Below, in pieces: positions 381 to 28,417 of a DNA stretch of 50,618 bases. Origin of the DNA: a virus. A model generated the notes under the pieces. That model had not been told where the DNA came from and made no database searches. It worked only from the letters and a program-made list of their open reading frames with translations. Position 1 is the first letter of the stretch. Each line of letters starts with the position of its first letter. The stretch lies in the IMG/VR virus record IMGVR_UViG_3300030105_002486, positions 5,062 to 55,679 of that record. The stretch is one strand, 5' to 3'. Position numbers and translations under genes: made by a program.

Positions 381-416
381 AATTATTTTTCCTATTTGCT
401 AATTAATTTAAAACAT

Positions 417-887
417 TTAGCGACCCCCGCCGCCAAATGCTACACGAGTCTTACGGTTTGGCGCAAGAACTGGCATCCTGGGATCGTTCTCACGCATGTA
501 ATTGTTGTCTACAGCCTGCATCTGTGATTCTGCATGCTTCTTGTAATATGCACGTCGTTGCTCCACCATTTCTTCGGGAGATTTGCAGAGTAGCAGTCCG
601 CCAACTTCAATACCACCCTTTGCACCAAAGTCTGATTTATGATCACTCATAATTTGTAGCTCAGGATGGTCTTCGGCCTTTACTGGTTCCCAACCTTCTC
701 TAAATCTTTTAGATACATTGGTATTATCAGTATGGCCAACCATTGATGTACGAATCCACCTAAATACCCAGCCATCTTGTGGCTTAGGATCTGGTAAGAT
801 TGATGCAGGCTCCCACGACTTATCTCTAGTTTCGTCTTCACGACTATCTAAATCCCGTGACTCCCGTGATGCGCGTTCCTCAGACAT
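417..887 (-). CDS. Head-module protein of unknown function (156 aa)
   Basis: The ATG at 887 is chosen because a purine-rich GGAGAAAGAAA ribosome site precedes it and it overlaps the scaffold-like gene's stop by only 8 nt; an upstream ATG at 929 would overlap by 50 nt. The N-terminus is highly charged (Arg/Glu/Asp/Ser). The middle has a Trp/Arg segment (GWVFRWIRTSMVGHTDN) and the C-terminus ends in FGGGGR. I recall similar proteins between scaffold and capsid genes of marine phages, but no function. Position suggests a head completion or internal capsid protein; this is inference. Confidence 0.75.
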   Translation of the reverse strand: MSEERASRESRDLDSREDETRDKSWEPASILPDPKPQDGWVFRWIRTSMVGHTDNTNVSKRFREGWEPVKAEDHPELQIMSDHKSDFGAKGGIEVGGLLLCKSPEEMVEQRRAYYKKHAESQMQAVDNNYMRENDPRMPVLAPNRKTRVAFGGGGR

Positions 888-1884: not shown

Positions 1885-2303
1885 TATGCTCTTTCCACTC
1901 CTCTGGGATCTTCAACAACAGCTTCAACCGTGTCATCATTGATTAAACGAAACTCTTTACCATGAATTTTAATTCTTGTACCACTAAATGCCCGAAAAAC
2001 AACCCAATCACCCTCTTTACAGTAGGGTCCAGAGGGAAATCGACTAAAATTTGCATAAGAATCAGACCCCATCTTCAATACAAAGCCTACAACAGTCGAT
2101 ATTGACTCTTCATATTGACTTTGTGCTGACTTGATAATGCCTCCATCAGTAGTTTCGGTAATTTCTGGAAGTGCAATCAATAATTTGTACCCTGTTGGAT
2201 CGGGTAGCTGTGATGCGGAGGGGGTTGGGTCATCAACATCTTTAAATGTAATCTCTTCGATATCAATAACAGGATTTTCTACTTCTTTCGCGAGTGTAGT
2301 CAT
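1884..2303 (-). CDS. GroES-like co-chaperonin (139 aa)
   Basis: After about 35 acidic residues comes a chaperonin-10-like domain: 'PTGYKLLIALPEI', a mobile-loop-like 'TTDGGIIKSAQ' with the Gly-Gly-Ile that contacts GroEL in the family, 'STVVGFVLKMG', and the closing strands 'KEGDWVVFRAFSGTRIKIHG' and 'NDDTVEAVVEDP'. Family knowledge: phage co-chaperonins such as T4 gp31 replace host GroES so that the large capsid protein folds inside GroEL. Placement directly before scaffold and capsid genes fits that job. No GroEL is present in the window, so it would use the host chaperonin. The N-terminal extension is longer than in GroES (about 97 aa). Confidence 0.88.
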   Translation of the reverse strand: MTTLAKEVENPVIDIEEITFKDVDDPTPSASQLPDPTGYKLLIALPEITETTDGGIIKSAQSQYEESISTVVGFVLKMGSDSYANFSRFPSGPYCKEGDWVVFRAFSGTRIKIHGKEFRLINDDTVEAVVEDPRGVERA

Positions 2304-2347
2304 GTGACCTCTCGTTAAATTGTGGCATCCTTGCGGACGTTGCTCTT

Positions 2348-2527
2348 CTAATTAGAAGGTTTATTCTTTTTACTCGTACTTTCATGTGAAGAAGATACCC
2401 AGAGTCTTCCATTTTCATCTACATCAAATTCAAATACCTCATGGTCTGGCTCCACAAAGATATCGGCATCTTCTTTGTCAATAACACCAAAATACTTACC
2501 TAATCGAACAAGAGATTCCCATTTCAT
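2348..2527 (-). CDS. Small acidic head-module protein (59 aa)
   Basis: Short ORF reading MKWESLVRLGKYFGVIDKED... and ending in a Ser/Lys/Asn tail. It begins 3 nt after the stop of the upstream 62-codon gene and fills the gap before the GroES-like gene, so it belongs to the same operon. The middle (DADIFVEPDHEVFEFDVDENGRLWV) looks like a small beta-rich unit. No known domain recognised. The tight spacing and plausible composition support a real gene. Confidence 0.6.
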   Translation of the reverse strand: MKWESLVRLGKYFGVIDKEDADIFVEPDHEVFEFDVDENGRLWVSSSHESTSKKNKPSN

Positions 2528-2530
2528 TCC

Positions 2531-2719
2531 TTAAAAATCCTGCACCTTATCTATCATATCAATTATTTCTCGTTCTGCCCAAGCTAATCCTTCAATAATA
2601 CCAGTAATCTTACGGTAATCCTCCATGTCCTTAGCATTTCCAACTGCCAAATGGTCAGCAAGCTCGTTCATCTGTTGCCTGATAGACTTTTTAAGTGTCA
2701 CGAGGACATTATCTGGCAT
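2531..2719 (-). CDS. Small helical protein after portal (62 aa)
   Basis: The ATG at 2719 sits 7 nt after a GGAG inside the end of the portal gene and overlaps the portal stop by 11 nt; an in-frame GTG at 2731 is less likely. The sequence (MPDNVLVTLKKSIRQQMNELADHL...) is nearly all helical, with a 'DYRKITGIIEGLAWAEREIIDMI' segment. I recall small proteins of this pattern next to portal or head-tail genes in many phages, without an assigned function. Probable coiled-coil assembly factor; role unknown. Confidence 0.65.
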   Translation of the reverse strand: MPDNVLVTLKKSIRQQMNELADHLAVGNAKDMEDYRKITGIIEGLAWAEREIIDMIDKVQDF

Positions 2720-5201
2720 TGTTATCTCCACTTATTTCCTGCTTAATCCTAAGTCCCATCTCAAGTCCTTTCACTTCTAGGTCTGCATCTAGTTTTTCAG
2801 ACTCAATCTCTGCCTTTAATAGTAAAGCTTTTTCTTCAAGACTCAATCCTGCCATATCTACACGTTCCTTGCTTGCAAGCTTCTGTCTTTCAAGTTCCAC
2901 CTTCTGCATATCAATCTGTTGCTTCGCTTGATCTGTCGCTTGCTTCGCTTGATCTGCAGCTTGCTTGCGCTGTTGGTCTTGTTCTAGTGTCGCAATCTCA
3001 CGTTCGCGCATTTGGATAATTGGATCTTGCTGATTTTGTGCTGCTTGATCTGCTTGTGCCTGTTGTTCTTTCTTACCAGACATCTGATCGGCAGCATCGG
3101 CTACTAATTTAGCAAGTTGCGATGCAAGCCTGGGCGATAGCTGCTCTTCTTCGGTTGGTAGTTTTATACCAAGCTCGTCTTCTATCTGTTTGCGGAAAAT
3201 AAATGCCAAGTGTTCACGAACATGTGCATCCAATGCACCACTCACCGCACCACCAGCAGGACTGTTCTGTACCTCCTGTGCCAACTGCGGATCATTTTTT
3301 AACATCATATGGACACGGTTGTGTGCCTCATGGTCCTGATACTCGTATACCTTAACAGGAGAAAGTGTAAGCATCTCTTGATTTTCAGTAATAGGATCTT
3401 TAGGTAGAACTTCTTCCTGATTCGGAACTACCCTATCTGCATTAGGAATACCAATAAGCTCCATCATTTGCCTATGCAATAATGGCATGTCATAAAGATT
3501 GGGAGACTGTTGCGCTAACTGTAGCGCTGCTTGATACTGCATAACTCTTTGTGCCATTGTCGATGCATTTGGATCAGAGACTGGAACAACATCAATGCGA
3601 TCATCAAAATCCTCAGCCTTTATACCTTCTCCATCTTCTGTTTCGTAAGGATATTCTGGGTCTGTATAATCGCGTATAATGTTTGATAAAATTTTATATT
3701 CTTGTTTTAAGCTTGCGTGTATCCTTGCTTGAATAGCAGACTGCACCTTCATCGCACGTTCCATAATTGCAAGAGTGGTCCCAACGGGAGCATCTTGACT
3801 CATGTCTGCTACTTTAAGGTCGGCCATTGACGCAAAGCGTCTGCCTTCTTCGACGATATTACCCAGTAACTGATAAAGGACCGAACTAGGTTCCTTATAA
3901 GGAAGGAAGGTGATGTTGTCGCGAATAACCCCACCAGGGACATCAACGTCCCTGAACTCTCCTGGCATGATAGGCGTGTCGTCGCCTTTGATTCTGAGTC
4001 CACGAGTTTTCAATCCTCCTGGTAGATTGGATAATGTGCCTGCATCAACCAACTGTCTAAGTAAGCTGGTTGCAGACTTGGCTAAACCTCCAATCATATG
4101 GATCAAGCCAAGGTTATAAAATCCAATTCCAGGAACATATCCATAGTGGACAAAGTGCTGCAGCTTAACTCTGTGCGGATCTTCTTCCTCCCAGTTCCTG
4201 TAAATAGAAAGAACAGTATTACTTCCTTTGTCGATTGTAACGACATACGGTAGTGCTACCTTGTCCTCGTCTTCATAACCTGGAAGGTCTACATCAACAT
4301 GCATTTCTAAGAGTTGATGTTTTTCCCGACTTTCATATGAGGGGGTCACGCCTCCAATATCATTATATTTTTCCCTGATTGGATTCTCTTCTACATTGGA
4401 GGGCGTAAGCTCAACATCCCGATAAAAACCACTAACCTGTAATTTTCTTATCTGGTTAGTACTCCTAGTCATTACATGGGTATACCGTTCTGCATGTTGT
4501 AACTCTCCCTCATTGTATGCAACTACAAAATCTTCAGCGGGAACAAACATAGAAGTAGGTCTGCCAAGGGATGGATCAAAATAAATCTTACGAAATGCAG
4601 AACCAGCTAACGGCAAACTAAATAATAACTTTTCAGTTTCTGAGCGATACTCAGTCATCACTTCAATAAGCTGATAGTTTAAATACTCCTGAACTCTTTT
4701 TGCCTGTTGCGCCCTTTCTTTAGTAAACTTACCCCAGACATGAGCCTTTACTGGCCCCTGCGCTGGCATAATTTCCTGTATAGTTTGAGCTTGAAATCTG
4801 ACGACTGCCTCTGATAACATTGGATGGAATACACCACATGCACCAGCCCATGGCGTTGTACGGTCTTCGATTTCTAATCCAAGCTGATCCAGGCCTTCCT
4901 TGTAGGTTTGCTCCCAAGACGATCTACTACTTCTATCGGACTCAAACTTAGACACCAGGTCTGAAGACAAAGTAGATAGTTCATTATCATCTATAAAGTC
5001 GGCAAGGTTAGATTGAAAAGAATCTTCACCCATACTCTCATCTGCTCCAGGATCGAAATCAACGACTACACTTCCATCGTCCATCTCTGTAACCTCTGAA
5101 TCCCCAGAAGCTTCTTCGTCTTCAATTACCATGAGTCCTTCTGGACCCATATCAAAATCATCTTGATTTAATAAAGATTCTAATGTTTTTTCTATTGCCA
5201 C
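2709..5201 (-). CDS. Portal protein, P22-like class (830 aa)
   Basis: Forms the dodecameric ring through which DNA enters and leaves the head. The core from about residue 65 to 640 carries the conserved segments I associate with this portal family: 'RSSWEQTYKEGLDQLGLEIE', 'RTTPWAGACGVFHPMLSEA', 'LLFSLPLAGSAFRKIYFDP', 'FVPAEDFVVAYNEGEL' and 'ERYTHVM'. The N-terminal 60 residues are acidic. Residues about 690-815 form a Gln/Lys/Ala-rich coiled coil that lengthens the protein beyond the usual 700-750 aa. The start is GTG at 5201, preceded by AGAGGAAT. It follows the large terminase after a 134 bp spacer that holds a structured element (5242-5297). Confidence 0.9.
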   Translation of the reverse strand: MAIEKTLESLLNQDDFDMGPEGLMVIEDEEASGDSEVTEMDDGSVVVDFDPGADESMGEDSFQSNLADFIDDNELSTLSSDLVSKFESDRSSRSSWEQTYKEGLDQLGLEIEDRTTPWAGACGVFHPMLSEAVVRFQAQTIQEIMPAQGPVKAHVWGKFTKERAQQAKRVQEYLNYQLIEVMTEYRSETEKLLFSLPLAGSAFRKIYFDPSLGRPTSMFVPAEDFVVAYNEGELQHAERYTHVMTRSTNQIRKLQVSGFYRDVELTPSNVEENPIREKYNDIGGVTPSYESREKHQLLEMHVDVDLPGYEDEDKVALPYVVTIDKGSNTVLSIYRNWEEEDPHRVKLQHFVHYGYVPGIGFYNLGLIHMIGGLAKSATSLLRQLVDAGTLSNLPGGLKTRGLRIKGDDTPIMPGEFRDVDVPGGVIRDNITFLPYKEPSSVLYQLLGNIVEEGRRFASMADLKVADMSQDAPVGTTLAIMERAMKVQSAIQARIHASLKQEYKILSNIIRDYTDPEYPYETEDGEGIKAEDFDDRIDVVPVSDPNASTMAQRVMQYQAALQLAQQSPNLYDMPLLHRQMMELIGIPNADRVVPNQEEVLPKDPITENQEMLTLSPVKVYEYQDHEAHNRVHMMLKNDPQLAQEVQNSPAGGAVSGALDAHVREHLAFIFRKQIEDELGIKLPTEEEQLSPRLASQLAKLVADAADQMSGKKEQQAQADQAAQNQQDPIIQMREREIATLEQDQQRKQAADQAKQATDQAKQQIDMQKVELERQKLASKERVDMAGLSLEEKALLLKAEIESEKLDADLEVKGLEMGLRIKQEISGDNNAR

Positions 5202-5241
5202 GAATAATTCCTCTGCAGGTGCCTCATCTTTCTATAACAGC

Positions 5242-5297
5242 CCCCAAGGGAAACTCTTGCAGGAAATAACCCTTGAGGACTGTGAAATAGAAACCTC
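5242..5297. other. Structured intergenic element, copy 1
   Basis: Between terminase and portal. CCCCAAGGG (5242-5250) faces CCCTTGAGG (5270-5278), giving a 9 bp stem. On the minus-strand RNA it is continuous with one U-G pair; on the plus strand it has one C-A mismatch. The 3' arm's GAGG can also pair with CCTC at 5294-5297, so two folds compete. A close copy lies at 18702-18755. Strand and function are not determined. Confidence 0.5.
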
Positions 5298-5335
5298 TCT
5301 AACACAATGAGAAAATATAGTCAAAGAGTCAACTC

Positions 5336-6982
5336 CTAATAATAATCTGCTTTTCTATTTAAAAGAAACTCTTCTTCCTCTTCGTCGCTTTCTATACGAA
5401 TAAATCCACCCTGACGAAAGCGCAATAATGCTTGTGTAGATGAGTCTACCAGGTCATCGTGATCCCCAGTGGGGAACGCGGCAAACTCCTCTATTACTAG
5501 TTCAGCCCATCTTGTTTTAGGCGCCCAGACGTGACCCGATGAAAATAAATCCGAGACAGCATTCACTCTTGCTATTTTATCTTTTCCTCTGCTGGGAACA
5601 TACTCACCCACAGGTATACCCATCCTTCGTAGCTCAAAAATTAAAGGGGTACCTGCTGCCTTGGCTTCAACAATAAAAGCATCAGGATCATATTCTTTGT
5701 ACATTTCATATGCTCTTGCCTTGAGATCTGGAAACTCAAGACGCTCCTGAAGAGCATCCAAAAGAATAATGTTTGCCACATCATTCTTGTCTGTAAAAAC
5801 ACCCCATGTTGTACACGCACTATAGTCTGCAGTTTCTTTTGCTAAAAATGCTGTATCCCAAGATTGAATAACAAAGTCACAAGTAGGAGGTTTTTTCTCT
5901 GTCCACTCTTTCCACCACTCACGCTTAATAATTGCAGATTCTTCAGAGGTAGGATCTTGCTGATACTGGGCGCTCCACTTGCTTACAGGAAGCTCAGCCT
6001 TTAGTGCCTCTAATTGATCCAGCGGCCAGAAGCCAGGCCACAAAGATTTGCCACTGGGAAGTATTGCAGGAAATTCTATTATCTCCCATTCATCAGCACC
6101 TCCTCTTTCTACGGATGCTTTAATAATACTTCCCGTTAAATCCTTTTTTGCCCAACGTGTCATAACTAAACATATAGCGCCTCCAGGCTGGAGCCTCTGG
6201 CGTGGACCTGACGTGTACCATTCATAGGTTTTGTCATATACGGATGGATCATTTAGGGCGGCTTCCTGCTCAGAATGTGGATCGTCCACGATTAAGATAT
6301 CTGCGCCCTTACCAGTTACAGCGCCACCCACACCAATAGCAAAGTAATCACCGCCCTTATTTGTACTCCAACGTCCCGCTGCCTTGGAATCAGTGCTTAA
6401 AGCAACATCCTGGAATATCCTCTGATATACTTCTGATCCTACAAGATTACGAACCTTACGACCAAATCCAACGGCAAGCTCTGCTGTGTGGGCAGTTTGA
6501 ATGACCTTTCTATCTGGAAACCTTCCTAAATACCATGCAGGGAAGAGGTTAGATGCAAATTCTGACTTTGTATGACGGGGTGGCATGTTTACTATAAGCC
6601 TCTTAAGGCTCCCATCTGCGATCCTATTGAATGCATCGGACATGATTGCGTGGTGGCTGCCCTCAATAAACGCGGGCCATACCTCTTTTACAAAAGAAAG
6701 AAAGTCTTTTTGTGCTGAAGCTCTCCCCCTTGCTATGTTTAACTGATCCAGAAGAGCAATAACTTCTTTCTGAGCAGTAGGAGAAAGAGCATGGAGGTTT
6801 TTGGTAACAGTGGTTATGTCTAGTTCCACTGGCAATCTATCATTTATCAGAATCCTTTGGTTTTTTTGACCACCTTCTACTATGGACCTTTCTATTGCGT
6901 TGAAGCAATAAGCCTCTACTATTACTACGGTAACGCTCTTGTCTTTTTGGCCCCTTGAAATATTTTTCTGTGACTTCCCCAT
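5336..6982 (-). CDS. Terminase large subunit (up to 548 aa)
   Basis: ATP-driven packaging motor and nuclease. Counting from the ATG at 6982: Walker-A-like 'MPPRHTKSE' (133-141), Walker B 'ILIVDDPH' (229-236), a motor segment around 'VMTRWAKKDLTG', then an RNase-H-like nuclease with 'QSWDTAF' (Asp376) and 'GDHDDLVDS' (Asp507, Asp509, Asp510). Family members I recall begin close to the 'LDITTVTKNLHALSP' segment, so the true start may be a GTG at 6829; the first 50 residues from the 6982 ATG overlap the upstream ORF by 143 nt in another frame and look atypical. The small subunit is not adjacent but at 9736-10173. Confidence 0.93.
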   Translation of the reverse strand: MGKSQKNISRGQKDKSVTVVIVEAYCFNAIERSIVEGGQKNQRILINDRLPVELDITTVTKNLHALSPTAQKEVIALLDQLNIARGRASAQKDFLSFVKEVWPAFIEGSHHAIMSDAFNRIADGSLKRLIVNMPPRHTKSEFASNLFPAWYLGRFPDRKVIQTAHTAELAVGFGRKVRNLVGSEVYQRIFQDVALSTDSKAAGRWSTNKGGDYFAIGVGGAVTGKGADILIVDDPHSEQEAALNDPSVYDKTYEWYTSGPRQRLQPGGAICLVMTRWAKKDLTGSIIKASVERGGADEWEIIEFPAILPSGKSLWPGFWPLDQLEALKAELPVSKWSAQYQQDPTSEESAIIKREWWKEWTEKKPPTCDFVIQSWDTAFLAKETADYSACTTWGVFTDKNDVANIILLDALQERLEFPDLKARAYEMYKEYDPDAFIVEAKAAGTPLIFELRRMGIPVGEYVPSRGKDKIARVNAVSDLFSSGHVWAPKTRWAELVIEEFAAFPTGDHDDLVDSSTQALLRFRQGGFIRIESDEEEEEFLLNRKADYY

Positions 6983-7277
6983 CCTCAGAGTCTTCTTCGG
7001 CAGCTAAATTAATAACCTGACGAGCAAGATCGTACCAATGTTCACTATTAGGCTTGTGTCCCAATTTTTGCAAGTAATCCTCTAGAATCTGGTTTGCACT
7101 TTTTCCTATAAATTTGATCTTACCACTGCTATAGAGAGCAAAGTATTCGGGAAACTCCTTTACAGCCTGCTTTGCAGTATATCCACGCTTTATATACCCA
7201 TGTCGATCACGAAAAGCAGCAGCTTTGTACGATTCAACTGCCCTTGCTATGACATAAAAGACATCATTCTTTTTCAC
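6840..7277 (-). CDS. Hypothetical protein before terminase (145 aa)
   Basis: Starts with GTG at 7277 behind AGGTG. The first 95 residues look like a real folded protein (FYVIARAVESYKAAAFRDRH, AKQAVKEFPEYFALYSSGK, NQILEDYLQKLGHKPNSEHW). The last 45 residues become Arg/Lys-rich and overlap the N-terminal extension of the large terminase by 143 nt. A run of seven A on the coding strand (near 6860) lies in this overlap, so the frame in the last 45 codons is less certain than in the first 95. No family recognised; the place suggests a packaging-linked role. Confidence 0.55.
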   Translation of the reverse strand: MKKNDVFYVIARAVESYKAAAFRDRHGYIKRGYTAKQAVKEFPEYFALYSSGKIKFIGKSANQILEDYLQKLGHKPNSEHWYDLARQVINLAAEEDSEDGEVTEKYFKGPKRQERYRSNSRGLLLQRNRKVHSRRWSKKPKDSDK

Positions 7278-13479: not shown

Positions 13480-14658
13480 ATGGCAAGGAGTACAAGGAGA
13501 GAAGAGTTAGCAGAGAGGGATATGTTGGAAGAGGTGACACCAACAGAAGCGTTGGAAATACTGCACGATCATGGTGAGCATTACAATTTACGGCCAGTAG
13601 TTCTGGTCGGTCCAGTGGGCATGGGCAAGACAAGCATCGCACTCCAGTACGCCAGGGAAAGGGCAGAGAGGGCTGGCTATGATGCAGTAGTAGATACACG
13701 TGTCAGTAAGCCACAAAAGGGAGAGGCAAGCGTATCATTTCTCAACTTGAATGATATGGAACCCGAAGATCTAATGTACCCATCTTATGGGAACAAGAAG
13801 TACACCACCTATGAAAGGATAGCAAGTACATCTTTACCAGGTGCTGACGAAAGCTGGGGACCACCAGCAGATATATTTAACACGATGATATTAGAAGAGA
13901 TTGGAAAGAAAAGGGAGATGATGCCCTTCACTGCCCAACTCTTATGTGAGAGGTCGGTAGGTACGAGCTACCTTATGCCACCACAGGTACACGTTGTCTG
14001 CACTGCCAATGGTGCAAGTCATAACGCTAATTCCTACAGCTTTACAGCAGATGTAATGGATAGGGCTACCTTCATAAAGGTCTGGACTCCAGCCAAGGCA
14101 TGGCTCAAGCACATGGCAGGGCAACTGCATCCACTTATCGTAGCCACAGTGGGAGTCCTTGAAGATGACTTCCTTAATACCTTTGAGCGAGAGCCTAGAG
14201 GGGAGCAGTTCGCAACCCCAAGGTCTATGGAAGCAGTGAGTGATATGATGATCAATGGACTGGACTTGGACTCACGCATAGGCAAGGCTCAACTGTTCGG
14301 GAACATCGGACAAACATCGGGCAGGGAATTGTTAGCTGTCCATAATACTATGCAAAAGATGCATGACCTAGATGCAATGATTGCAGATCCAAATGGTATG
14401 TCCGACAAGATCCAGGACTACAAAGAAGATACAAGTAACAACGGAAGGATAGCACTGGCAGGAATGGTGGCAATACTTAGTAAGAGAGTGAGGAAAGATG
14501 CGAGTGAGGTAAATAAATTATTACCATTTGTGAAATTGTTTGGCGAGGAACTGGAAGTGACGTTTGCACACATGGCACTGACAGTGAACAAAAAAGTACA
14601 AAAGGAGAAGGCATTCGTGGATCACATGGTGAGGCTCCAGGAAACGCATTACTTCTAA
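13480..14658 (+). CDS. MoxR-type AAA+ ATPase (392 aa)
   Basis: Walker A GPVGMGKTS at 44-52, Walker B-like 'TMILEE' at 135-140, sensor-1 Asn in 'VVCTANG' (about 177), and 'DVMDRATFIKVW' with the arginine expected before sensor 2. The order and the 'PFTAQLLCER...MPPQVHVVCTANG' layout match MoxR-type AAA+ proteins, which remodel partners and usually sit next to a von Willebrand A protein. Here the partner is two genes downstream (15783-17081). The 107 bp upstream gap probably holds this cassette's own promoter. CobS-like ATPases of T4-like phages belong to the same broad group. Confidence 0.85.
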   Translation: MARSTRREELAERDMLEEVTPTEALEILHDHGEHYNLRPVVLVGPVGMGKTSIALQYARERAERAGYDAVVDTRVSKPQKGEASVSFLNLNDMEPEDLMYPSYGNKKYTTYERIASTSLPGADESWGPPADIFNTMILEEIGKKREMMPFTAQLLCERSVGTSYLMPPQVHVVCTANGASHNANSYSFTADVMDRATFIKVWTPAKAWLKHMAGQLHPLIVATVGVLEDDFLNTFEREPRGEQFATPRSMEAVSDMMINGLDLDSRIGKAQLFGNIGQTSGRELLAVHNTMQKMHDLDAMIADPNGMSDKIQDYKEDTSNNGRIALAGMVAILSKRVRKDASEVNKLLPFVKLFGEELEVTFAHMALTVNKKVQKEKAFVDHMVRLQETHYF

Positions 14659-14682
14659 AAATATTTCTGAACAAAATTTTAG
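14655..14682. repeat. TTGTTCA/AT-palindrome motif, copy A (reverse)
   Basis: ATTTCTGAACAA flanked by AT palindromes; begins at the stop codon of the ATPase gene and ends 26 bp before the next start. Confidence 0.5.
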
Positions 14683-14707
14683 TTTACTTTTTCTTAGGGG
14701 GTACAAG

Positions 14708-15694
14708 GTGCAACAAGATACATCGTTACATAGCGGTCATGTTCTGACAGGTCTGGAAGTTACAAAGAATGGCTGGCGGAAGAGCGACAAGGAGATAGCT
14801 ATCGCTGGTGCAGATGCCGAAGGCATCGACAGGAAGAGGGCAAGGGCTAGTGTAATACTCTTAGATGAGGCATTGGTACGTAGGCTTAACAAACCTGAAG
14901 TCTATGCTAGGAACTACATGAAGGAAGTGACAGAGCCGTGGTCATCTTCAAGGAATAATAAGAATGGTGGCAGGGTGAAGGGCAATGAATACTTACTAAT
15001 GTATGAAGACCTCGCAGAGTACGAGGGAGCAATGCAAAAATTCGGAGAGGAGTTTTGGAGTGTTCTTCAGAAAGATTTGTTTGCTCATTGGAGTAGCCTA
15101 CGTGCCGATGCACTGATAGAACTCAATGGAAAGTACGATAATTACTTCCCACCGTTAGCTGATCTGCGTCAAAGGTATAGCTGGAAGGTATGGATCAAAC
15201 CCCTTCCCGAACCGACTAACGAGAAAGACATCAGGCTCGTTGCCTCTCAAGCAGATATTACTAGGGCTGTTGAAGAGGATCGAAGCCAACACCAAGCGAA
15301 GATGGCAAATGTTATCGGAGGTATTGCCGATGACATCATTGAATCTACCGTAGATATTGCTGGGAGACTTGGTGGATTTCAACCCAACAAAGACGGCAGG
15401 AAGGGTAACAACCTACCCAAGGGTCCAGGGTGGGAGAACTACAAAGGTCTAGCTGATCGCATAGACAAGTGGAACACAACCTTTCCAGATACTGCATTGG
15501 AAAGTGCATCAAAGAAAATCAGGGAGCTAGTCAATGAGGTGGAACAGATAGGTGGTGGAAATCTCTCCGATGCAAGAAAGTATTTAGGTGGAAGAGATGA
15601 CAGCATACGAGAACCAATCGTAGAAAAACTCAAAGAAATTAAGAAGACTGTCGAGCCAGCAACAAGTAGGTTCGAAGAATGGATGAAGAACTGA
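14708..15694 (+). CDS. Middle gene of MoxR/VWA cassette, unknown (328 aa)
   Basis: GTG start at 14708 behind AGGGGG. Basic, helical N-terminus (WRKSDKEIAIAGADAEGIDRKRARA), a Trp/Tyr-rich middle (FGEEFWSVLQKDLFAHW, YFPPLADLRQRYSWKVWIKPLP), and a C-terminal coiled-coil-like stretch (SASKKIRELVNEVEQI, EKLKEIKKTV). No known domain. Placed between the ATPase and the VWA/HExxH gene, it is the obvious third component: adaptor, substrate or regulator. This is inference from order only. Confidence 0.78.
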   Translation: MQQDTSLHSGHVLTGLEVTKNGWRKSDKEIAIAGADAEGIDRKRARASVILLDEALVRRLNKPEVYARNYMKEVTEPWSSSRNNKNGGRVKGNEYLLMYEDLAEYEGAMQKFGEEFWSVLQKDLFAHWSSLRADALIELNGKYDNYFPPLADLRQRYSWKVWIKPLPEPTNEKDIRLVASQADITRAVEEDRSQHQAKMANVIGGIADDIIESTVDIAGRLGGFQPNKDGRKGNNLPKGPGWENYKGLADRIDKWNTTFPDTALESASKKIRELVNEVEQIGGGNLSDARKYLGGRDDSIREPIVEKLKEIKKTVEPATSRFEEWMKN

Positions 15695-15705
15695 AGGTTA
15701 TATAA

Positions 15706-15724
15706 TGTTCAGAAATTATTTTTA
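15706..15724. repeat. TTGTTCA/AT-palindrome motif, copy G
   Basis: TGTTCAGAAATTATTTTTAA, 11 bp after a stop codon and 58 bp before the next ATG. Confidence 0.5.
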
Positions 15725-15782
15725 ATTACCGCGAGAAAATCAGTAGGTTTCAAATTCACAATCCAAGAGAGAGGTTGGGAAG

Positions 15783-17081
15783 ATGACATATGTAGATCTT
15801 CAACAAAGGTTTTTAGGGATCAAAGAAGCAAACGAACATCTAGCAAATGTTAGGAAGACAGTGGTCAAGGAAAGAGCTAGGCTGTGCAAGAAACAGCCAG
15901 GAACTTTTCTGCTGATTGGTGGATGTAAAATAATAATATCTGAACAACACGATACTTATGCCACCGATGGTAAAACTATATGGGCGAACCCAGGCTTTGT
16001 AACTTCACTAACGCCTAAGCAAAATAAGACAGTTCTTTTCCATGAGTTCCAGCACATAGCCTTACATCATAACACTAGGCGTGGCAACATCCATCCTGAT
16101 TTATGGAATATCGCTTGCGATTACATCGTCAACGGACTGATATACCATAGTTCAAATTACGGAGAGGAGTACGAGCTTCCAGGCAATTATTGCTGGCATG
16201 ACTTCTATTCCTCTCCGAAGTGTGACTGGTCTGCAGAGAGGATATCTCGTCAAATGATTAAGGATGGGTGGGAGCCACCGCCAGATAAGCCAGGAGACCC
16301 CGACAAACCAGGAGATGCTGACGATGGAGACAAAGATGACAGCGAGGGGTCAGCGCCAGGGGGCTGTGGTGATATTCTGGATAGTCCAGCCGTCGAGGAA
16401 GGGGAGATCGCCATACAGCAGGAAGAGTACGAGTTAAAGCAACGCTTGGCTGAGGCATCGTTGATTGAAAAGTCAGCAGGCACACAGGTTGGTGGCGCTT
16501 GTACCATCATCAAGGACAGAGAGGAACGAGGGTCAAGATCTTCCGAAGAGATCCGTGAGTTTCTACAGGATAACGTGAGGTCCAGGCGATCCTTCAAGAG
16601 GCCCAACAAGAGATGGCTATCACAAGGAATGCTGTTGCCTTCCCATGAGAAGAAAGTGCAGGAGCTTTACGTGGCTATCGACTCCTCTGCATCCGTGGGA
16701 CTAGACGAGTTTGAGCAATACAGAAACAACCTTGTTCGGTGGGCGATGGAACTATCGCTTGAAAGGATTCGTGTTGCCTACATAGACAGCAAGATACATT
16801 TGAACCCAGAGACAGGAGAGCCATGGTACGACATCCATCTCAATGCAGGGGGTGGAGCAGAGGGAATGGAGCTAGATGTATTCGGTGGTGGTGGCACATC
16901 ATTCGATCCAATCTTTGACTACATCGAAGAGGAAGGAGTGCCAGTGAGTTCGTTGATATATTTCACAGATGGATATGGTCAGGTGTATTCTGAACAACCG
17001 AACTATCCAGTCATGTGGCTGACATCTGGTGCTACACCAAGATTTTATGGTGATCAGTGGGGAGAAGTGATAAGAGTGTGA
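15783..17081 (+). CDS. Putative metallopeptidase plus von Willebrand A protein (432 aa)
   Basis: N-terminal domain with HEFQH (His87, Glu88, His91), a zinc-binding HExxH motif followed by IALHHNTRRG and 'DLWNIACDYIVNGLI', as in the DUF2201-type putative metallopeptidase domain. An acidic Gly/Asp/Pro linker follows (about 160-200). The C-terminal VWA domain has the MIDAS signature DSSAS (about 300), 'GGGGTSFDP' (about 369) and 'YFTDGYG' (about 394). VWA proteins of this type pair with MoxR ATPases, here encoded two genes upstream. ATG at 15783 follows GAGAGAGGTTGGGAAG. Whether the peptidase is active is not known for the family. Confidence 0.87.
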   Translation: MTYVDLQQRFLGIKEANEHLANVRKTVVKERARLCKKQPGTFLLIGGCKIIISEQHDTYATDGKTIWANPGFVTSLTPKQNKTVLFHEFQHIALHHNTRRGNIHPDLWNIACDYIVNGLIYHSSNYGEEYELPGNYCWHDFYSSPKCDWSAERISRQMIKDGWEPPPDKPGDPDKPGDADDGDKDDSEGSAPGGCGDILDSPAVEEGEIAIQQEEYELKQRLAEASLIEKSAGTQVGGACTIIKDREERGSRSSEEIREFLQDNVRSRRSFKRPNKRWLSQGMLLPSHEKKVQELYVAIDSSASVGLDEFEQYRNNLVRWAMELSLERIRVAYIDSKIHLNPETGEPWYDIHLNAGGGAEGMELDVFGGGGTSFDPIFDYIEEEGVPVSSLIYFTDGYGQVYSEQPNYPVMWLTSGATPRFYGDQWGEVIRV

Positions 17082-20449: not shown

Positions 20450-22195
20450 CTAGAAATCCCAGTCGTAATCGTCAAAGGCAGGGCCAAAGTTATTCCACCT
20501 GCCACTGATCTTATCGTAGTGGAGAGGACATGATCCATTCTTTCCTACCCAATTCCAACGTGCCTTCCACACGTGGGCTTCGGGTGGCTCTTCATCCTTC
20601 GGGTGCCTCCACACTGTAAGTCCGATGTCTGCCTTGGAGAACCAAGTATGAGAGCCTGAGATATCCATACCAGTAACAACAACCTTGTTGCCTGTCCTTC
20701 TCTCGCTGTTGAGTTTTGCAGGGTGAGCCACAAAAAATACATGGGCATCATGGTTCTTTGCCCATTGCTGAATTTTGGTAAGCATTGAACTGATTGCATC
20801 AGTTTCTCTGCCCGAACCTATGTCGATATAATTATACGGATCAATGACAAGTATCCTACTTCCATATCGCAGTACACACTCCGATGCCTTCCTGAGTATG
20901 TTGTCGATGTCGGATGCCCCACCACTACGGTTGTCCATGAAGACAAAACTTTCTTTCATCACCTCCCTGCTGAATGCTACTTCTTCTTCAGACATACGAG
21001 TCGCATGGCCCTCCACAAAGAAGGGTCTATTGATAATCTTCTGGGATAGCTGAGCGTAATGATAGTCTGCTGGCTTTTCAAAACTACAGAAAACGGTTTT
21101 CCAGTTATGACTTTTTGCTAGGTTCACACAGAACTGATCAACCAAATCAGATTTACCAGAAGCAGGAAAGCCAGTGACGATAGTCACCATCCCCAATGGT
21201 ATCTGCATATACTCATCCAAGGAAGTCAGTCCAGTCGAGGCCCCCTTGATGTGTCCCTGATCATAGAGATTCAAAACTGAATCGAAAATATCATCCACCG
21301 TATGCACACCGATGATGGGAAGTACCGTAGCTTTATCTAGCTGATCTTCAAGATATACTTTCCCCTTTATTTCCAACGCTTCGGATGCGTCCTTGTATTC
21401 GTCCAAAGAAACTATCCAAGTCTTAGAACTACCAACCCGACGAATGATTTCTTTCTCCAACGCATTACCTGGCCCGTCGTTGTCTGTATTTAAAAATATT
21501 TTTGGTGATAATTTTAGTTGCTTCTCCGCCCTCCATATATAACGAAATTTATTATCATCTTTGGGATCAATTTTTCCGTCTTTAACTTTTGCTGGCGCTC
21601 CATTGGGGATACTAAGCACGGTTATGTTGGGGGGCAGATCGCAAGACATCCATGCCAACGCATCCATCTCTCCCTCACAGATTAATATATCATTGCCATC
21701 GACATATGATTCTAAGTTAAAGAAATCTTCGCACACATTTTCTTGTGAAAAATTTTTCTTGGTGTCAGCACTTCGCCACTTTACTGCCCTCACGTCCCCT
21801 TCAACTCTATATGGAAATCCTACAGCAGGTACCGTCTTGCCATTAAATCGGTAGGTAGAAAGTATTGTATGTTCTTCGATAATCTTTTCTTCAATGTTTC
21901 TGTCCCTGAGATACTTGAATGCTTCTTCATTGTTGTTGTTTTTATTGATCGAAATAGGCTTGCTTTTTTTCATAGATGGCTCCCTGTATTTTGCCCTGTT
22001 TTCTGTATCGTATAAATGACCACCCTCTGCCCCACAGTGGTGACAAAGGTACTGCACCCCCCTACTGTCTACCCTCACGGACAAGGGCTTGTCTGTCTTG
22101 TGCTTGCTCCTGCTATCCTGACAATCTGGACATCTGATTTTGTGCTGACCTATACTTAAATTAGAAACTCTCTGTAGTATTTCAGTAGCTAACAT
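20450..22195 (-). CDS. Primase-helicase, T7 gp4 / Twinkle-like (581 aa)
   Basis: Unwinds the fork and probably lays primers. Zinc finger Cys22-Cys25 and Cys51-Cys54; TOPRIM domain with 'ILICEGEMDALAW' (Glu174, Glu176) and 'NTDNDGPG' (Asp238, Asp240); RecA-like helicase with Walker A GFPASGKS (342-349), Walker B 'ILVIDPYN' (448-455) and 'VFFVAHPAK'. Length and order match full-length phage primase-helicases. It reads against the surrounding early genes, as does the RusA-like gene before it. No DNA polymerase is visible in the window, so replication would use the host polymerase or one outside the window. Confidence 0.92.
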   Translation of the reverse strand: MLATEILQRVSNLSIGQHKIRCPDCQDSRSKHKTDKPLSVRVDSRGVQYLCHHCGAEGGHLYDTENRAKYREPSMKKSKPISINKNNNNEEAFKYLRDRNIEEKIIEEHTILSTYRFNGKTVPAVGFPYRVEGDVRAVKWRSADTKKNFSQENVCEDFFNLESYVDGNDILICEGEMDALAWMSCDLPPNITVLSIPNGAPAKVKDGKIDPKDDNKFRYIWRAEKQLKLSPKIFLNTDNDGPGNALEKEIIRRVGSSKTWIVSLDEYKDASEALEIKGKVYLEDQLDKATVLPIIGVHTVDDIFDSVLNLYDQGHIKGASTGLTSLDEYMQIPLGMVTIVTGFPASGKSDLVDQFCVNLAKSHNWKTVFCSFEKPADYHYAQLSQKIINRPFFVEGHATRMSEEEVAFSREVMKESFVFMDNRSGGASDIDNILRKASECVLRYGSRILVIDPYNYIDIGSGRETDAISSMLTKIQQWAKNHDAHVFFVAHPAKLNSERRTGNKVVVTGMDISGSHTWFSKADIGLTVWRHPKDEEPPEAHVWKARWNWVGKNGSCPLHYDKISGRWNNFGPAFDDYDWDF

Positions 22196-22202
22196 CTAAA
22201 CC

Positions 22203-22290
22203 ATTCCTTTACTTAGATATATATTAATTAGATAATATATCTATAAAAGTTTTAAGTATATTATCTTTATTATCTATAGTAGATATTACT
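22203..22290. repeat. AT-rich dyad cluster shared with 7395-7487
   Basis: TAGATAATATATCTA at 22229-22243 and ATCTATAGTAGAT at 22272-22284 are exact copies of dyads at 7472-7486 and within 7408-7422. The cluster covers the short primase-RusA gap and the 3' end of the RusA-like gene. Same candidate binding protein or origin feature as at 7.4 kb. Confidence 0.5.
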
Positions 22291-22649
22291 ATAATTGTTC
22301 TTGGATTTTCTTTGTCTAGACCATGCTCAATTAATTTCAGCTTGACCTGTCGGTCATTCTCGTAGACAAAGCCCTGCAACAGATCAAGTATCAGGGACTC
22401 ATCCAGGTCAGGTCTCCTGCTCTTGTAAAATATTTTCATGGCAACCATTAAGTCTTGATCTTTTGTGTAAAGATTTTTTCGCACTGGACACTGCAACTCA
22501 AAGCCCTTCTTGTAAAGCAGGGCCTTCTGGGACTTGATAATCATAGGCTTGCCACGCACACTCACTAGCCTTCTAGAGTTAGCTTTTGAGGCTGGCTCAC
22601 CCTGTATCGTTAGTATGCATGGATCGTTGTTTATAGGCTTGCGTTTCAT
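22224..22649 (-). CDS. RusA-like Holliday junction resolvase (141 aa)
   Basis: Cuts four-way junctions left by recombination or replication. 'GEPASKANSRRLVSV' at the N-terminus and 'RRPDLDESLILDLLQG' plus 'VYENDRQV' carry the three catalytic aspartates of the family (here Asp81, Asp83, Asp99). Length is close to E. coli RusA (120 aa), with an extra C-terminal 20 residues encoded by the AT-rich dyad cluster. Operon with the primase-helicase and divergent from the recombination genes at 22735. Confidence 0.9.
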   Translation of the reverse strand: MKRKPINNDPCILTIQGEPASKANSRRLVSVRGKPMIIKSQKALLYKKGFELQCPVRKNLYTKDQDLMVAMKIFYKSRRPDLDESLILDLLQGFVYENDRQVKLKLIEHGLDKENPRTIIVISTIDNKDNILKTFIDILSN

Positions 22650-22734
22650 ATCACTTGGGGTTATCGTTCTTCCTCTCTCAGGACAGATAGTCTAACTGAG
22701 TTAGAGTCTTTTCGCAATAACTAAGGGGGGAGTT
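22650..22734. promoter_or_regulatory. Divergent promoter region with TCTAAC-TGA-GTTAGA dyad
   Basis: The 85 bp between RusA-like (minus) and 22735 (plus) must drive both. A perfect 6 bp dyad lies at 22691-22705. A good operator candidate; promoter boxes not resolved. Confidence 0.4.
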
Positions 22735-23019
22735 TTGTACAATCCAAACCGACAGCCGAAAGGTGATAAGCGATTTTGGACAAGCGAGAATGTTCCAATC
22801 CCACTGAATAGGGGTGGACGGCAGGAAGAGTGGGCAGATTTACCATTTGACACCATCGCTGTAGGCACAGTGATTGGGATACCACTTACGTCAGAGGAGA
22901 AGACCCAGAGGATGATAAGGAACCTCAGGAGTCTTGCTTGGCGTAGAGGTAAGAGTTTTAATAAGAAGTTCTCTGCAAGAGTAACTGAATATGGCGTTGG
23001 AATATGGAGGGTAGAATGA
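22735..23019 (+). CDS. Small phage protein, paralogue 1 (94 aa)
   Basis: Probable TTG start at 22735 just after AGGGGGGAG. The pattern 'VPIPLNRGG...WADLPFDTIAVGTVIGIPL...RRGKSFNKKF...GVGIWRVE' matches the next gene position by position, so these are tandem paralogues of a small family I recall as widespread in phages with no known function (DUF7303-like). Beta-strand then Arg/Lys-rich helix, compatible with nucleic-acid binding. Confidence 0.72.
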   Translation: MYNPNRQPKGDKRFWTSENVPIPLNRGGRQEEWADLPFDTIAVGTVIGIPLTSEEKTQRMIRNLRSLAWRRGKSFNKKFSARVTEYGVGIWRVE

Positions 23020-23252
23020 CAGAGATAGAGGTGAGGAGAGGCGTTCCACTACCAAGTAAGCAGAGTACCAGACATCTGCCGTTGCCCTTTGAGGGGTTGC
23101 TCGTTGGCGAATCTTTTATTGTCCCAGATGATGGTGGCACTATGGAATCCAGACTCAGGTCTGCGTGTTCACGCTACGGTAAACGGTGGGGTAAAGTGTT
23201 TGCATGTCGCAAGGTAGACAATAATACATTCGGAATTTGGAGAACGGAATGA
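23016..23252 (+). CDS. Small phage protein, paralogue 2 (78 aa)
   Basis: ATG at 23016 behind GGAGGGTAGA, overlapping the previous stop. 'GVPLPSK...LPLPFEGLLVGESFIV...YGKRWGKVFACRKV...FGIWRTE' parallels paralogue 1. Ends with an ATGA overlap into the nuclease gene, tying the pair to the recombination module. Confidence 0.75.
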   Translation: MTEIEVRRGVPLPSKQSTRHLPLPFEGLLVGESFIVPDDGGTMESRLRSACSRYGKRWGKVFACRKVDNNTFGIWRTE

Positions 23253-24064
23253 TTACTACCAATGAATTTGGCGCACCCGATGCGTTTGTAAGGGCAGTAA
23301 CAGATGATCTTTATAGCAAGGGAGAGGCTGATTTCAGTGTCACTGGATTGATCCAACCACCACAGATTGCACGGCTGAAGAAAGAACATGAGGACAAGCT
23401 AAGCTCTGACGTGAGAGACAGGGTCTGGATGCTGTTAGGCACTGCCGTACACAACACGCTAGAAAAATATGGAGAAGGCAATGTCGAGGAACGATACTTT
23501 GCTGACTGCAATGGCACCACGATCTCTGGAGCTATCGACCTAGAGAAGGATGGAAACATTACTGACTACAAGGTGACATCTACTTTCACTGTACAGAATG
23601 CATTAAAATCTGACTGGGAAGCTCAACTCAACATGTATGGTTGGCTCCTACGTAAGAACGGCACTGAACCAAAGTCTCTGACTGTCGTAGCGATATGTCG
23701 TGACTGGATGAAGTCACGTGCTGGTAAAAATAATTATCCAGTATCCATGATTGTTCCGATCAATGTCCCCCTGTGGCATCCAGAGAGAGTAGAAAGATAT
23801 ATAAGTCATAGGGTTAAATTGCACACTACAGAAGCGACACCCCCTTGCACTACCGAAGAGAGGTGGGCGCGTGGCGCTTTCAGTGTGACAGGAGGAAGAG
23901 GAAGGCCAAAGAGTTACGACACGTTGGCTGATGCGACTCATTTCATTAACCAACAGAGTTCAGGCAGTTACTCTATTGTTCCTGGGAATGCTCGTTATAT
24001 ACGATGTGAAGGATGGTGCGACGTTTCGGAGTTTTGTAAACAATGGCAAACGGAGGGAAACTAA
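23249..24064 (+). CDS. PD-(D/E)XK nuclease, RecB/Cas4-like (271 aa)
   Basis: 'GTAVHNTLE' (His68), 'GAIDLEKDG' (Asp97), 'ITDYKVTS' (Asp106-x-Lys108) and 'EAQLNMYGWLL' (Gln126, Tyr130) form the full motif set of RecB-type nucleases. C-terminal 'RYIRCEGWCDVSEFCKQW' adds three cysteines that may bind a metal or cluster, though a four-Cys Cas4 cluster is not complete. ATG at 23249 with GGAGAACGGA. Followed by an annealing protein, the usual phage exonuclease-recombinase pairing. Confidence 0.88.
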   Translation: MITTNEFGAPDAFVRAVTDDLYSKGEADFSVTGLIQPPQIARLKKEHEDKLSSDVRDRVWMLLGTAVHNTLEKYGEGNVEERYFADCNGTTISGAIDLEKDGNITDYKVTSTFTVQNALKSDWEAQLNMYGWLLRKNGTEPKSLTVVAICRDWMKSRAGKNNYPVSMIVPINVPLWHPERVERYISHRVKLHTTEATPPCTTEERWARGAFSVTGGRGRPKSYDTLADATHFINQQSSGSYSIVPGNARYIRCEGWCDVSEFCKQWQTEGN

Positions 24065-24065
24065 A

Positions 24066-24755
24066 ATGGCTAAGCCAACAGCTAAGGAGATCTGGGATAA
24101 ATTATCCAAGATTGATGTAAGTAAGCACACTGAAGATCGTGGAGGATTAACGTACCTCAGTTGGGCATGGGCGTGGGGAATTATGATGGACCACTACCCT
24201 GACTTGGAGATGAAGTGGCAGGGCCAGTTAGATGAGAATGGAATAATGAGAGATGTCAATCTCTATCCTGGTGGTAGTGCGACGGTAAACTGTTCTGTCA
24301 CCATTGGTGATGTGAAGAGGGAGATGTGGCTACCTGTTATGGATTTCAGGCACAAGGCCATCATTGGTCCTGATGCACGACAGGTATCAGATACTAAAAT
24401 GCGTTGCTTTACCAAATGCTTTGCGATGTTTGGTTTGGGACATTACATCTATGCTGGTGAAGATGTACCCCAAGAAGATGACACGCCTACACCCAAAAAG
24501 TCTGCACCTAAAAAGCAACCGAAGCCGAAGATAGTATCAATAAAAAAATCTGATAAAAATTATATTGATGACTTGAAGGTTCTTGCCAATGACTTACACG
24601 AAAGAGGCTGGACCCCCGAAGGTGATACCAAGAAGGCAATCAAAGCTGTGGTTGCAAATGGCGATGAAGAGAAAGCAGTAATTTTAATCAAGAGTTTGAA
24701 GGAAGCAGGGAAGTTACTACTTGAAGTTAACGATACAAAGGCAGAGGAAGTTTAA
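24066..24755 (+). CDS. DUF1071/ERF-like single-strand annealing protein (229 aa)
   Basis: 'TYLSWAWAWGIMMDHYPDLE' near the N-terminus, 'VNCSVTIGDVKREMWLPVMD', 'DTKMRCFTKCFAMFGLGHYIYAGED' are signatures of the DUF1071 / Sak3-type annealing proteins. A Pro/Lys linker (about 142-160) separates this core from a C-terminal helical domain resembling those that recruit SSB. Works with the nuclease encoded just upstream (2 bp gap). The ATG at 24066 is preferred over a longer reading that lies inside the nuclease gene. Confidence 0.85.
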   Translation: MAKPTAKEIWDKLSKIDVSKHTEDRGGLTYLSWAWAWGIMMDHYPDLEMKWQGQLDENGIMRDVNLYPGGSATVNCSVTIGDVKREMWLPVMDFRHKAIIGPDARQVSDTKMRCFTKCFAMFGLGHYIYAGEDVPQEDDTPTPKKSAPKKQPKPKIVSIKKSDKNYIDDLKVLANDLHERGWTPEGDTKKAIKAVVANGDEEKAVILIKSLKEAGKLLLEVNDTKAEEV

Positions 24756-28116: not shown

Positions 28117-28417
28117 GTTCCTTGAACTCTGCACTGTTATCTAATAAAGCTGGACGCTTAGGTTCCTTGATAGACTTCGCTATACCAGAGGCTACGGCTC
28201 CTACTTGAGGAGCTAAGTATTGGCTTACACGGGGTCCACCTGCCCATGCCACTAAGCCCACGCCCAAGCTACCAAGCAAAGTGTAGGCTGTCCCAGGAAC
28301 TTCCCATACCGTAGAGTCAAGCACAATCAGTACGCCCGTAAACAACAATGCGCCCAGAAGGAAGGTACGGGCCGCACTTAAGTTACCCTTCTCATCTGTT
28401 AAAAGTTCTCTAATCAT
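28103..28417 (-). CDS. Holin-like membrane protein (104 aa)
   Basis: Two or three hydrophobic segments (FLLGALLFTGVLIVLD, YTLLGSLGVGLVAWA, VGAVASGIA) and a basic-acidic C-terminal tail. Small, multi-spanning and directly before the endolysin: the usual holin arrangement. ATG at 28417 overlaps the stop of the giant gene. Confidence 0.65.
   Translation of the reverse strand: MIRELLTDEKGNLSAARTFLLGALLFTGVLIVLDSTVWEVPGTAYTLLGSLGVGLVAWAGGPRVSQYLAPQVGAVASGIAKSIKEPKRPALLDNSAEFKEHDEK

Follow-up and report, generated by a model that had tools for sequence, protein, structure and literature searches.

The ~70 kb N4-like phages have, among their core genes, a MoxR protein and a metallopeptidase-VWA protein; in N4 itself these correspond to gp24 and gp25, which are middle transcripts, and the roseophage RPP1 has genes for four virion proteins in the vicinity of its gp24/gp25 homologues (PMC4193335). 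A MoxR and metallopeptidase-vWA pair was also described in group 2.2 jumbo phages by Iyer et al. 2021, and a role in virion assembly was proposed for it by analogy with the pair of the Acidianus two-tailed virus (PMC7824862). VMAP ternary systems combine vWA-MoxR with a third component (PMC7159879) and, in the plasmid pCAR1, ORF100-109 constitute one transcription unit, within which ORF101-103 are conserved in R478, Rts1, SXT and R391 (PMC2642839).

The window analyzed here (the whole stretch of 50,618 nucleotides, taken from the IMG/VR virus record IMGVR_UViG_3300030105_002486) encodes a MoxR-type protein and a VWA protein separated by a third gene. A previous sequence-only reading had placed a three-gene cassette at positions 13480-17081, and its ORFs, strand and coordinates stand as given (Table 1). 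The intergenic gaps are 49 nt (genes 1/2) and 88 nt (genes 2/3), and each of the three starts is preceded by a purine-rich sequence. The ORFs are not due to chance, because independent contigs contain homologues of all three, with 34-71% identity and unchanged gene order, and the MoxR-DUF3150-VWA cassette is confirmed as real. That reading also regarded the combination as unusual in a small-genome phage, a view that does not hold, since MoxR with a metallopeptidase-VWA protein is core in N4-like phages (PMC4193335) and is reported for jumbo phages as well (PMC7824862).

Table 1. Coordinates of the triad, its motifs and the associated recombination genes in the window.
Feature	Positions	Strand	Remarks
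Gene 1, MoxR-type AAA+ ATPase (predicted)	13480-14658	+	392 aa; N4 gp24 family, PHROG 1297
Walker A GPVGMGKTS, gene 1 residues 44-52	13609-13635	+	from the translation
Walker B MILEE, gene 1 residues 136-140	13885-13899	+	E-E replaces D-E
Gene 2, divergent DUF3150 (PF11348) relative	14708-15694	+	328 aa; GTG start
Gene 3, DUF2201 protein	15783-17081	+	432 aa; N4 gp25 family, PHROG 1314
HExxH motif HEFQH, gene 3 residues 87-91	16041-16055	+	99-100% conserved in 68 phage-side homologues
MIDAS DxSxS, gene 3 D300-S302-S304	16680-16694	+	invariant in 68 homologues
MIDAS T372 of gene 3	16896-16898	+	invariant in 68 homologues
MIDAS D396 of gene 3	16968-16970	+	invariant in 68 homologues
Exonuclease (PHROG 2139), associated, outside the triad	23237-24064	+	~6 kb downstream
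Sak-like ssDNA annealing protein (PHROG 8492/659), associated	23931-24755	+	also in 14/46 related records

The ATPase and the VWA protein

The best match of gene 1 is PHROG 1297 'ATPase' (E 2.2e-33), and its identity with the relatives L006 and L005 is 36-38%. The Walker A motif, already assigned to residues 44-52 from the sequence alone, is borne out by the translation and by conservation (G47, G49 and K50 are retained in 93-98% of 60 homologues), and E140, N177, R195 and R248, corresponding to Walker B, sensor and Arg residues, are conserved over the same set. Residue 139 is Asp in 95% of the homologues and Glu in the window protein and its relative L010. Gene 1 is, hence, a predicted MoxR-type AAA+ ATPase: the earlier assignment gains from the PHROG match, while a Pfam scan of gene 1 yielded no AAA family at or above its cut-off and the Walker B is of the E-E type. 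The E-E Walker B of the window ATPase counts against a remodelling-complex reading.

Two Pfam families are recognized in gene 3, PF13203 'putative metallopeptidase' (E 2.6e-30, 106.4 bits versus a gathering score of 23.2) and PF09967 'VWA-like DUF2201' (E 5.9e-9, 36.5 bits versus 26.4). Its structural model (pLDDT 87) retrieved VWA/MIDAS domains in Foldseek, including that of Midasin/Rea1. H87, E88 and H91 are conserved in the 68 homologues; in a wider set DxSxS is present in 129/129 proteins, and HExxH is degenerate in 9/129, all of them bacterial or plasmid. These matches and residues bear out the HExxH domain plus MIDAS-type VWA recognized at the outset in the third protein, and show it as the predicted VWA cofactor of gene 1, with an intact MIDAS and an N-terminal zincin-like HExxH domain. 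The comparison made then with CobS/CobT was, however, with the wrong family, because gene 3 belongs to DUF2201; Pfam lends no support to a CobS/CobT identity, and no CobT-type domain was found in gene 3 in a Pfam scan at E<=1.

A divergent DUF3150 relative as third gene

The middle gene had been taken for a novelty devoid of recognizable domains. Indeed, direct Pfam and PHROG scans of gene 2 gave nothing above threshold (Apolipoprotein and Pgp3 appeared in these single-sequence scans as weak helix-type matches and were dismissed as coiled-coil noise), PF11348 searched directly against the window genome found no match, and neither did tblastn of gene 2 against 50,697 phage records. However, hhalign aligned gene 2 with a set of 11 proteins that includes annotated DUF3150 proteins, 5/11 of which match PF11348, with prob 99.35 and E 6.1e-21 over 279 columns, and PF11348 is matched by 16/34 members of the gene 2 family (best 1.7e-9). 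In the predicted structure (pLDDT 85) the N-terminal part is small and of beta/helix type, the rest consisting of long helices, and the top BFVD match of this model in Foldseek is a 'DUF3150 domain-containing protein' (E 1.7e-11). Profile and fold searches of the PDB returned only OspC and designed helical bundles, none at E<=1e-3. Judged by profile and predicted fold, gene 2 belongs, as a diverged member, to DUF3150, a known but little-noticed family; it is neither a domain-less novelty nor an unrelated known phage protein, an outcome that would have spoken against the first reading. In the model a conserved Asp27 comes ahead of a helix, where its role may be a structural one, and it is not claimed here as a MIDAS ligand. 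DUF3150 was not found mentioned by name in the literature searched.

Loci retrieved with the VWA gene alone contained DUF3150 in 30/44 non-redundant phage cases and in 42/80 bacterial ones, mostly as MoxR-DUF3150-VWA, and rearranged orders (DUF3150 ahead of MoxR, or behind VWA) still hold all three genes. Bacterial triads are compact, with median gaps of 16 and -4 nt and several cases of -4/-4 nt overlaps. Over 68 triads, distance correlations were 0.86-0.89, compared with a permutation maximum of 0.26, which shows, as far as sequence distances reveal it, that gene 2 is co-inherited with the MoxR-VWA pair. The third gene is, therefore, genuinely co-conserved beside the pair, as first supposed, and the concern that the three genes would rarely be together in related genomes did not materialize. 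Nevertheless, DUF3150 is not required for the pair, since N4-like phages and a marine clade carry MoxR and VWA without it. To see whether records lacking a neighbouring copy have DUF3150 elsewhere, 46 records were searched along their whole length, and a convincing match appeared in only three, those already known to hold one; weak matches of 15.8 bits were discounted because they lie inside VWA-sized frames, and neither LIT1 ORF34 nor a 276 aa ORF of L082 found support as a hidden DUF3150.

The cassette is not phage-specific either: the operon also occurs in bacterial genomes and on conjugative plasmids, antibiotic-resistance plasmids among them, where distant versions of the triad are backbone genes. 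The plasmid DUF3150 type is carried by 1,118 plasmids; conjugative plasmids of Enterobacterales, IncC among them, account for many of these. The order MoxR-DUF3150-VWA is found on pCAR1, pCAV1857-208, pT159A and pMAQU02, while in pSCEC2 the genes are split by ssb-bet-exo; in the IncC-type plasmids examined the triad adjoins Red-like recombination genes. In each of these five plasmids, the VWA protein likewise carries HExxH at its N-terminus together with a MIDAS motif (5/5). For SXT, Garriss et al. 2009 was discarded as a source on the triad: it deals with bet/exo (s065/s066) only, and the terms MoxR, CobS, s067, s068 and s070 are absent from it (PMC2786100).

Genomic context and proposed role

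The triad sits among small early-type ORFs without recognized function, opposite the late genes: in related phage records the terminase lies on the other strand in 18/18 cases and the portal in 15/15. The exonuclease, in turn, is on the strand of the triad in 25/25 records, usually 4-8 kb downstream, and a Sak-like annealing protein is also present in 14/46. The relevant exonuclease is that of PHROG 2139; YqaJ was rejected as a general phage neighbour, being found in 1/46 records only. Recombination genes are not specific to DUF3150, and their proximity goes with the MoxR-VWA pair rather than with gene 2, because they are about equally common in DUF3150-negative phages. The proximity could be inherited synteny. 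None of the three guesses of the sequence-only reading involved DNA recombination.

One of those guesses was virion maturation, and a chaperone-protease for virion assembly or maturation is also the published proposal for the jumbo-phage pair (PMC7824862), to which the four virion proteins encoded near the RPP1 gp24/gp25 homologues (PMC4193335) could be added. This role fits less well, because conjugative plasmids, which make no virion, keep the triad as a backbone operon; the opposite strand of terminase and portal and the loss of HExxH in 9/129 homologues also speak against it. We consider it quite unlikely for the triad, and the standing virion-assembly proposal for MoxR-VWA pairs is weakened.

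Another possibility, which takes in the two other guesses, is host takeover or counter-defence, in which the machine would unfold or cleave a host complex (a defence protein, a nuclease or a transcription factor) encountered by phage or conjugating DNA early after entry. Phages and conjugative plasmids, both of which carry the triad, meet identical host barriers, HExxH is intact on the phage side, and the early-type surroundings and the middle transcription of N4 gp24/gp25 (PMC4193335) agree with such timing. However, no anti-defence gene was recognized among the neighbours, and PADLOC gave no match. Counter-defence genes usually turn over fast, whereas in N4-like phages the pair belongs to the core whatever the host. 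This explanation is possible, but on the unlikely side. Much less credible, indeed very improbable, is an anti-phage or inter-element conflict system carried as cargo: although VMAP ternary systems provide a precedent for vWA-MoxR with a third component (PMC7159879), Pfam scans of the triad and of the gene 2 family revealed no VMAP domain, no effector domain was found in the triad, PADLOC does not identify it as a defence system, and it belongs to a phage-lineage core and to plasmid backbones, not to variable cargo.

The explanation we favour, with about an even chance of being correct, is that the triad forms one ATP-driven protein-remodelling complex, carried as a unit by mobile elements, whose client is on the early DNA side and not in the virion. 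The MoxR hexamer would pull on a client protein, and the MIDAS of gene 3 would hold this client, or an adaptor, via an acidic residue, by analogy with Midasin, RavA-ViaA and NorQ-NorD; selection of the client might fall to DUF3150 as a dedicated adaptor or bridge, and the client may be clipped by the zincin domain. The context suggests that this client could be a recombination/replication protein-DNA assembly, or a host complex meeting the incoming DNA. In a more specific and tentative version, which we regard as unlikely, the triad would be an as yet undescribed three-component remodelling machine of phages and conjugative plasmids, and perhaps of SXT/R391-type elements too; it would load, clear or recycle Red-like recombination or replication complexes (SSB/annealase/exonuclease on ssDNA) while the incoming element becomes established and recombines. 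The favoured explanation allows phage, plasmid and bacterial copies to be considered as one three-gene machine, and joins the N4-like core pair gp24/gp25 and the plasmid backbone operon in one testable question.

Comparison with known systems

MoxR-VWA pairs are already known from N4 (gp24/gp25) and from jumbo phages, but in the literature searched no description of the three-part system seems to exist. The N4-like gp24 (AAA+) and gp25 (vWFA), as seen in LIT1, belong to PHROG 1297 and PHROG 1314, as in the window, and are adjacent or nearly so, in the same order, as middle genes opposite the late-gene strand; however, no DUF3150 was detected anywhere in LIT1, and the 172 aa protein between gp24 and gp25 is unrelated. 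In the jumbo phages, the domain architecture of both proteins is that of the window, although the available part of the paper makes no mention of a third gene (PMC7824862), whereas the window has a conserved one and a DNA-processing neighbourhood. VMAP/vWA-MoxR systems (PMC7159879), RavA-ViaA, NorQ-NorD, CbbQ-CbbO and Midasin share with it the association of a MoxR-family ATPase with a VWA/MIDAS cofactor, but differ in the N-terminal domain of the VWA protein and in the third component, which is unmatched, no VMAP being found in the triad.

Among phages with annotated records, Synechococcus phage MinM2 (OQ594354) represents the only lineage with a tblastn-detectable DUF3150; Pag-Yong1 and Pra-JY27 are identical to it in record length and matches. 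MinM2 shares with the window the triad and a syntenic terminase, portal-like protein, GroES, primase and giant protein, but its VWA protein is only 27.5% identical, small genes are inserted within the triad, and ERF replaces the Sak-like annealase. The VWA protein of pCAR1 and its IncC relatives is larger (584-637 aa) and the phage DUF2201 profile matched it only marginally, while their DUF3150 was matched by a profile of the whole family (prob 97, E 2e-11) but scarcely by that of the window clade alone (E 0.009). Even so, the pCAR1 VWA protein has its HExxH at the start and its MIDAS VWA at the end, like gene 3, and pCAR1 ORF101-103 (MoxR, DUF3150 and a NorD-like VWA) and their IncC relatives keep the gene order of the window.

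Architecture of the Cassette and Its Outer Genes

The window is part of a virus record of 55,679 bases, and the three open reading frames lie where the sequence-only reading had placed them, all on one strand and separated by gaps of 49 nt (genes 1 and 2) and 88 nt (genes 2 and 3). The best family for gene 1 was PHROG 1297 "ATPase" (E 2e-33), and the Walker A motif proposed at its residues 44-52 was confirmed (GPVGMGKTS). In the Walker B motif (window 13885-13899), ILEE replaces the usual DE, as it does in a relative, L010. The description of gene 3 as an HExxH protein with a MIDAS-type VWA domain was equally borne out: PF13203 and PF09967 both exceeded the Pfam cut-offs, and the HExxH (residues 87-91) and MIDAS residues were near-invariant across 68 relatives. 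Its predicted model (pLDDT 87) resembled solved VWA/MIDAS domains, including Midasin/Rea1, and matched a chain of the NorQD complex more weakly. PHROG 1314 and RefSeq phage records (e.g., NC_013692, NC_023719) label DUF2201 metallopeptidase-VWA proteins "HNH endonuclease"; since scanning the window protein against Pfam gave no HNH domain, this label looks like a propagated mis-annotation.

Coordinates of the cassette and of other features in the window
Feature	Position	Strand	Description
Gene 1	13480-14658	+	MoxR-type ATPase
Gene 2 (middle gene)	14708-15694	+	
Gene 3 (VWA gene)	15783-17081	+	
Exonuclease	23237-24064	+	
Annealase	23931-24755	+	Sak-like
Co-chaperonin	1884-2303	-	GroES-like, phage-encoded
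Giant protein	28414-38955	-	3,513 aa

The Middle Gene as a Divergent DUF3150-Family Protein

The middle gene had been read as lacking any recognisable domain. Indeed, neither a direct family search nor a tblastn search against 50,697 phage records gave a match; however, profile and fold comparison revealed a relationship with DUF3150. A 39%-identical middle gene occupies the equivalent place in two contigs whose VWA gene is 40% identical, and a profile of these three sequences, run on 4,341 ORFs, picked up middle genes in unrelated contigs (E values from 1e-15 to 1e-7), with iteration converging on 36 distinct proteins. PF11348 (DUF3150) was matched by 16 of 34 aligned family members (best 1.7e-9), while hhalign aligned the window clade end-to-end with a set including annotated DUF3150 proteins (probability 99.35, E 6e-21, 279 columns). 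The AlphaFold model of gene 2 (pLDDT 85) showed no significant match in the PDB, and its top BFVD match was a DUF3150 protein (E 1.7e-11). These profile, hhalign and fold matches, and not the Pfam model itself, show that gene 2 encodes a divergent DUF3150-family protein.

On a Ca. Manganitrophus plasmid (L090), AAA+ ATPase, DUF1257 and DUF2997 genes lie near DUF3150, with no VWA gene nearby. Locus L174 (32933-35525) corresponds to Mycobacterium phage Dylan genes 94/95; gene 94 (275 aa) adjoins an AAA ATPase and may be the Foldseek match S5YZA3, which has an equal length.

Co-occurrence in Phages, Bacteria and Plasmids

The three-gene neighbourhood singled out by the sequence-only reading recurs elsewhere. 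With the VWA protein as the sole query, and the phage set collapsed to 44 non-redundant loci, a DUF3150 gene was present in 30 (order MoxR-DUF3150-VWA in 24, DUF3150 first in three and after VWA in one), as well as in 42 of 80 bacterial loci, nearly always in the order MoxR-DUF3150-VWA. The bacterial triads come from Burkholderiales, Acidobacteria, Alphaproteobacteria and others, many with 4-nt overlaps at gene junctions, and the pair without DUF3150 is found in Desulfovibrionaceae and some other bacteria. Tree-distance correlations among the three proteins reached 0.86-0.89 (68 triads; permutations ≤0.26), which shows co-inheritance and not, alone, interaction. Several gains or losses on the VWA tree are needed to explain the presence of DUF3150. 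Because the N4-like phage LIT1 and other phages keep the MoxR and VWA pair without it, DUF3150 counts as an accessory or specificity subunit, not as a part of the core motor. On a 934 kb Acidobacteria contig (L127), the chromosomal triad may lie in a prophage, because its neighbours include a weak Mom-like match and genes for an HATPase-domain protein and Siphovirus Gp157.

The trio is also carried by plasmids of Burkholderiales and alphaproteobacteria. A more distant copy in pCAR1 (AAA ATPase, DUF3150, NorD-like VWA) falls within ORF100-109, transcribed as one unit, of which ORF100-103 were reported as conserved in R478, Rts1, SXT and R391, the middle gene not being described there (PMC2642839). 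The pCAR1-type DUF3150 appeared in 1,118 of 72,556 plasmid records, 969 of them predicted conjugative. In all five pCAR1-type plasmids examined, the VWA protein likewise combines an HExxH in its N-terminal part with a MIDAS motif; its architecture has thus been kept even in relatives so remote that they hardly match the VWA profile. The ATPase and DUF3150 genes of pSCEC2 (IncC) are separated by ssb-bet-exo; recT and a lambda-type exo lie immediately upstream in pCAV1857-208, pT159A and pMAQU02, and ssb, recT and exo 10-17 kb downstream in pCAR1.

Phage Neighbourhood and Proposed Mechanism

In the window, the exonuclease and annealase genes follow on the strand of the triad, and terminase, portal and other late genes occupy the opposite one. 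The PHROG 2139 exonuclease shares the VWA-gene strand in 25/25 records possessing it; among 22 measured, 20 are downstream of the VWA gene, with 18 at distances of up to 8 kb (median 5.8 kb); the two exceptions would also be nearby were the contig circularly permuted. Compared by hand from locus tables, terminase (18/18) and portal (15/15) lie on the opposite strand to the VWA gene. The N4 AAA+/vWFA pair, gp24/gp25, are middle genes (PMC4193335). The GroES-like gene of the window sits between the portal and head-side genes, and the giant protein has, close to the C-terminus, a polyvalent-protein domain of the LPD38 family (E 2e-30).

AAA+ rings of the MoxR kind remodel protein complexes with VWA cofactors, and examples have been listed (PMC7159879). 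The MIDAS DxSxS is found in 129/129 homologues of the VWA protein and the HExxH is degenerate in nine, the phage-side members keeping it; metal-dependent binding would thus be the conserved function, proteolysis being optional across the family. The degenerate, MIDAS-intact DUF2201 homologues (loci L093, L097, L104, L107, L111, L117, L136, L157 and L171) show forms such as HAVMH, ATVLH and HDVLH. DUF3150 would act as an adaptor or bridge, and the remodelling client would be a DNA-side component or host factor, since the triad also occurs on plasmids, which have no virion to assemble, and is accompanied by recombination genes in both kinds of element. The phage synteny with these genes goes with the MoxR and VWA pair, DUF3150 present or not, and may be simply inherited.

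Comparison with Known Systems

The MoxR/metallopeptidase-vWA pair is already known (PMC7824862, PMC4193335 and PMC7650795). The name DUF3150 occurs in none of the papers searched, a body of literature that leaves out most subscription journals and therefore does not prove absence; the conserved third component and the phage/plasmid/bacterial link appear undescribed. The closest annotated relative of the window is the Synechococcus phage MinM2 (OQ594354), which has the same triad/late-gene layout and homologues of the terminase, portal, GroES, primase, exonuclease and giant protein, the latter annotated there as RelA/SpoT. With identities to MinM2/Pag-Yong1/Pra-JY27 of 46% (terminase), 38% (portal), 56% (GroES), 33% (primase) and 35% (exonuclease), the record is a distant syntenic relative of these cyanophages across window 1-7000 (-) and 20450-24755.
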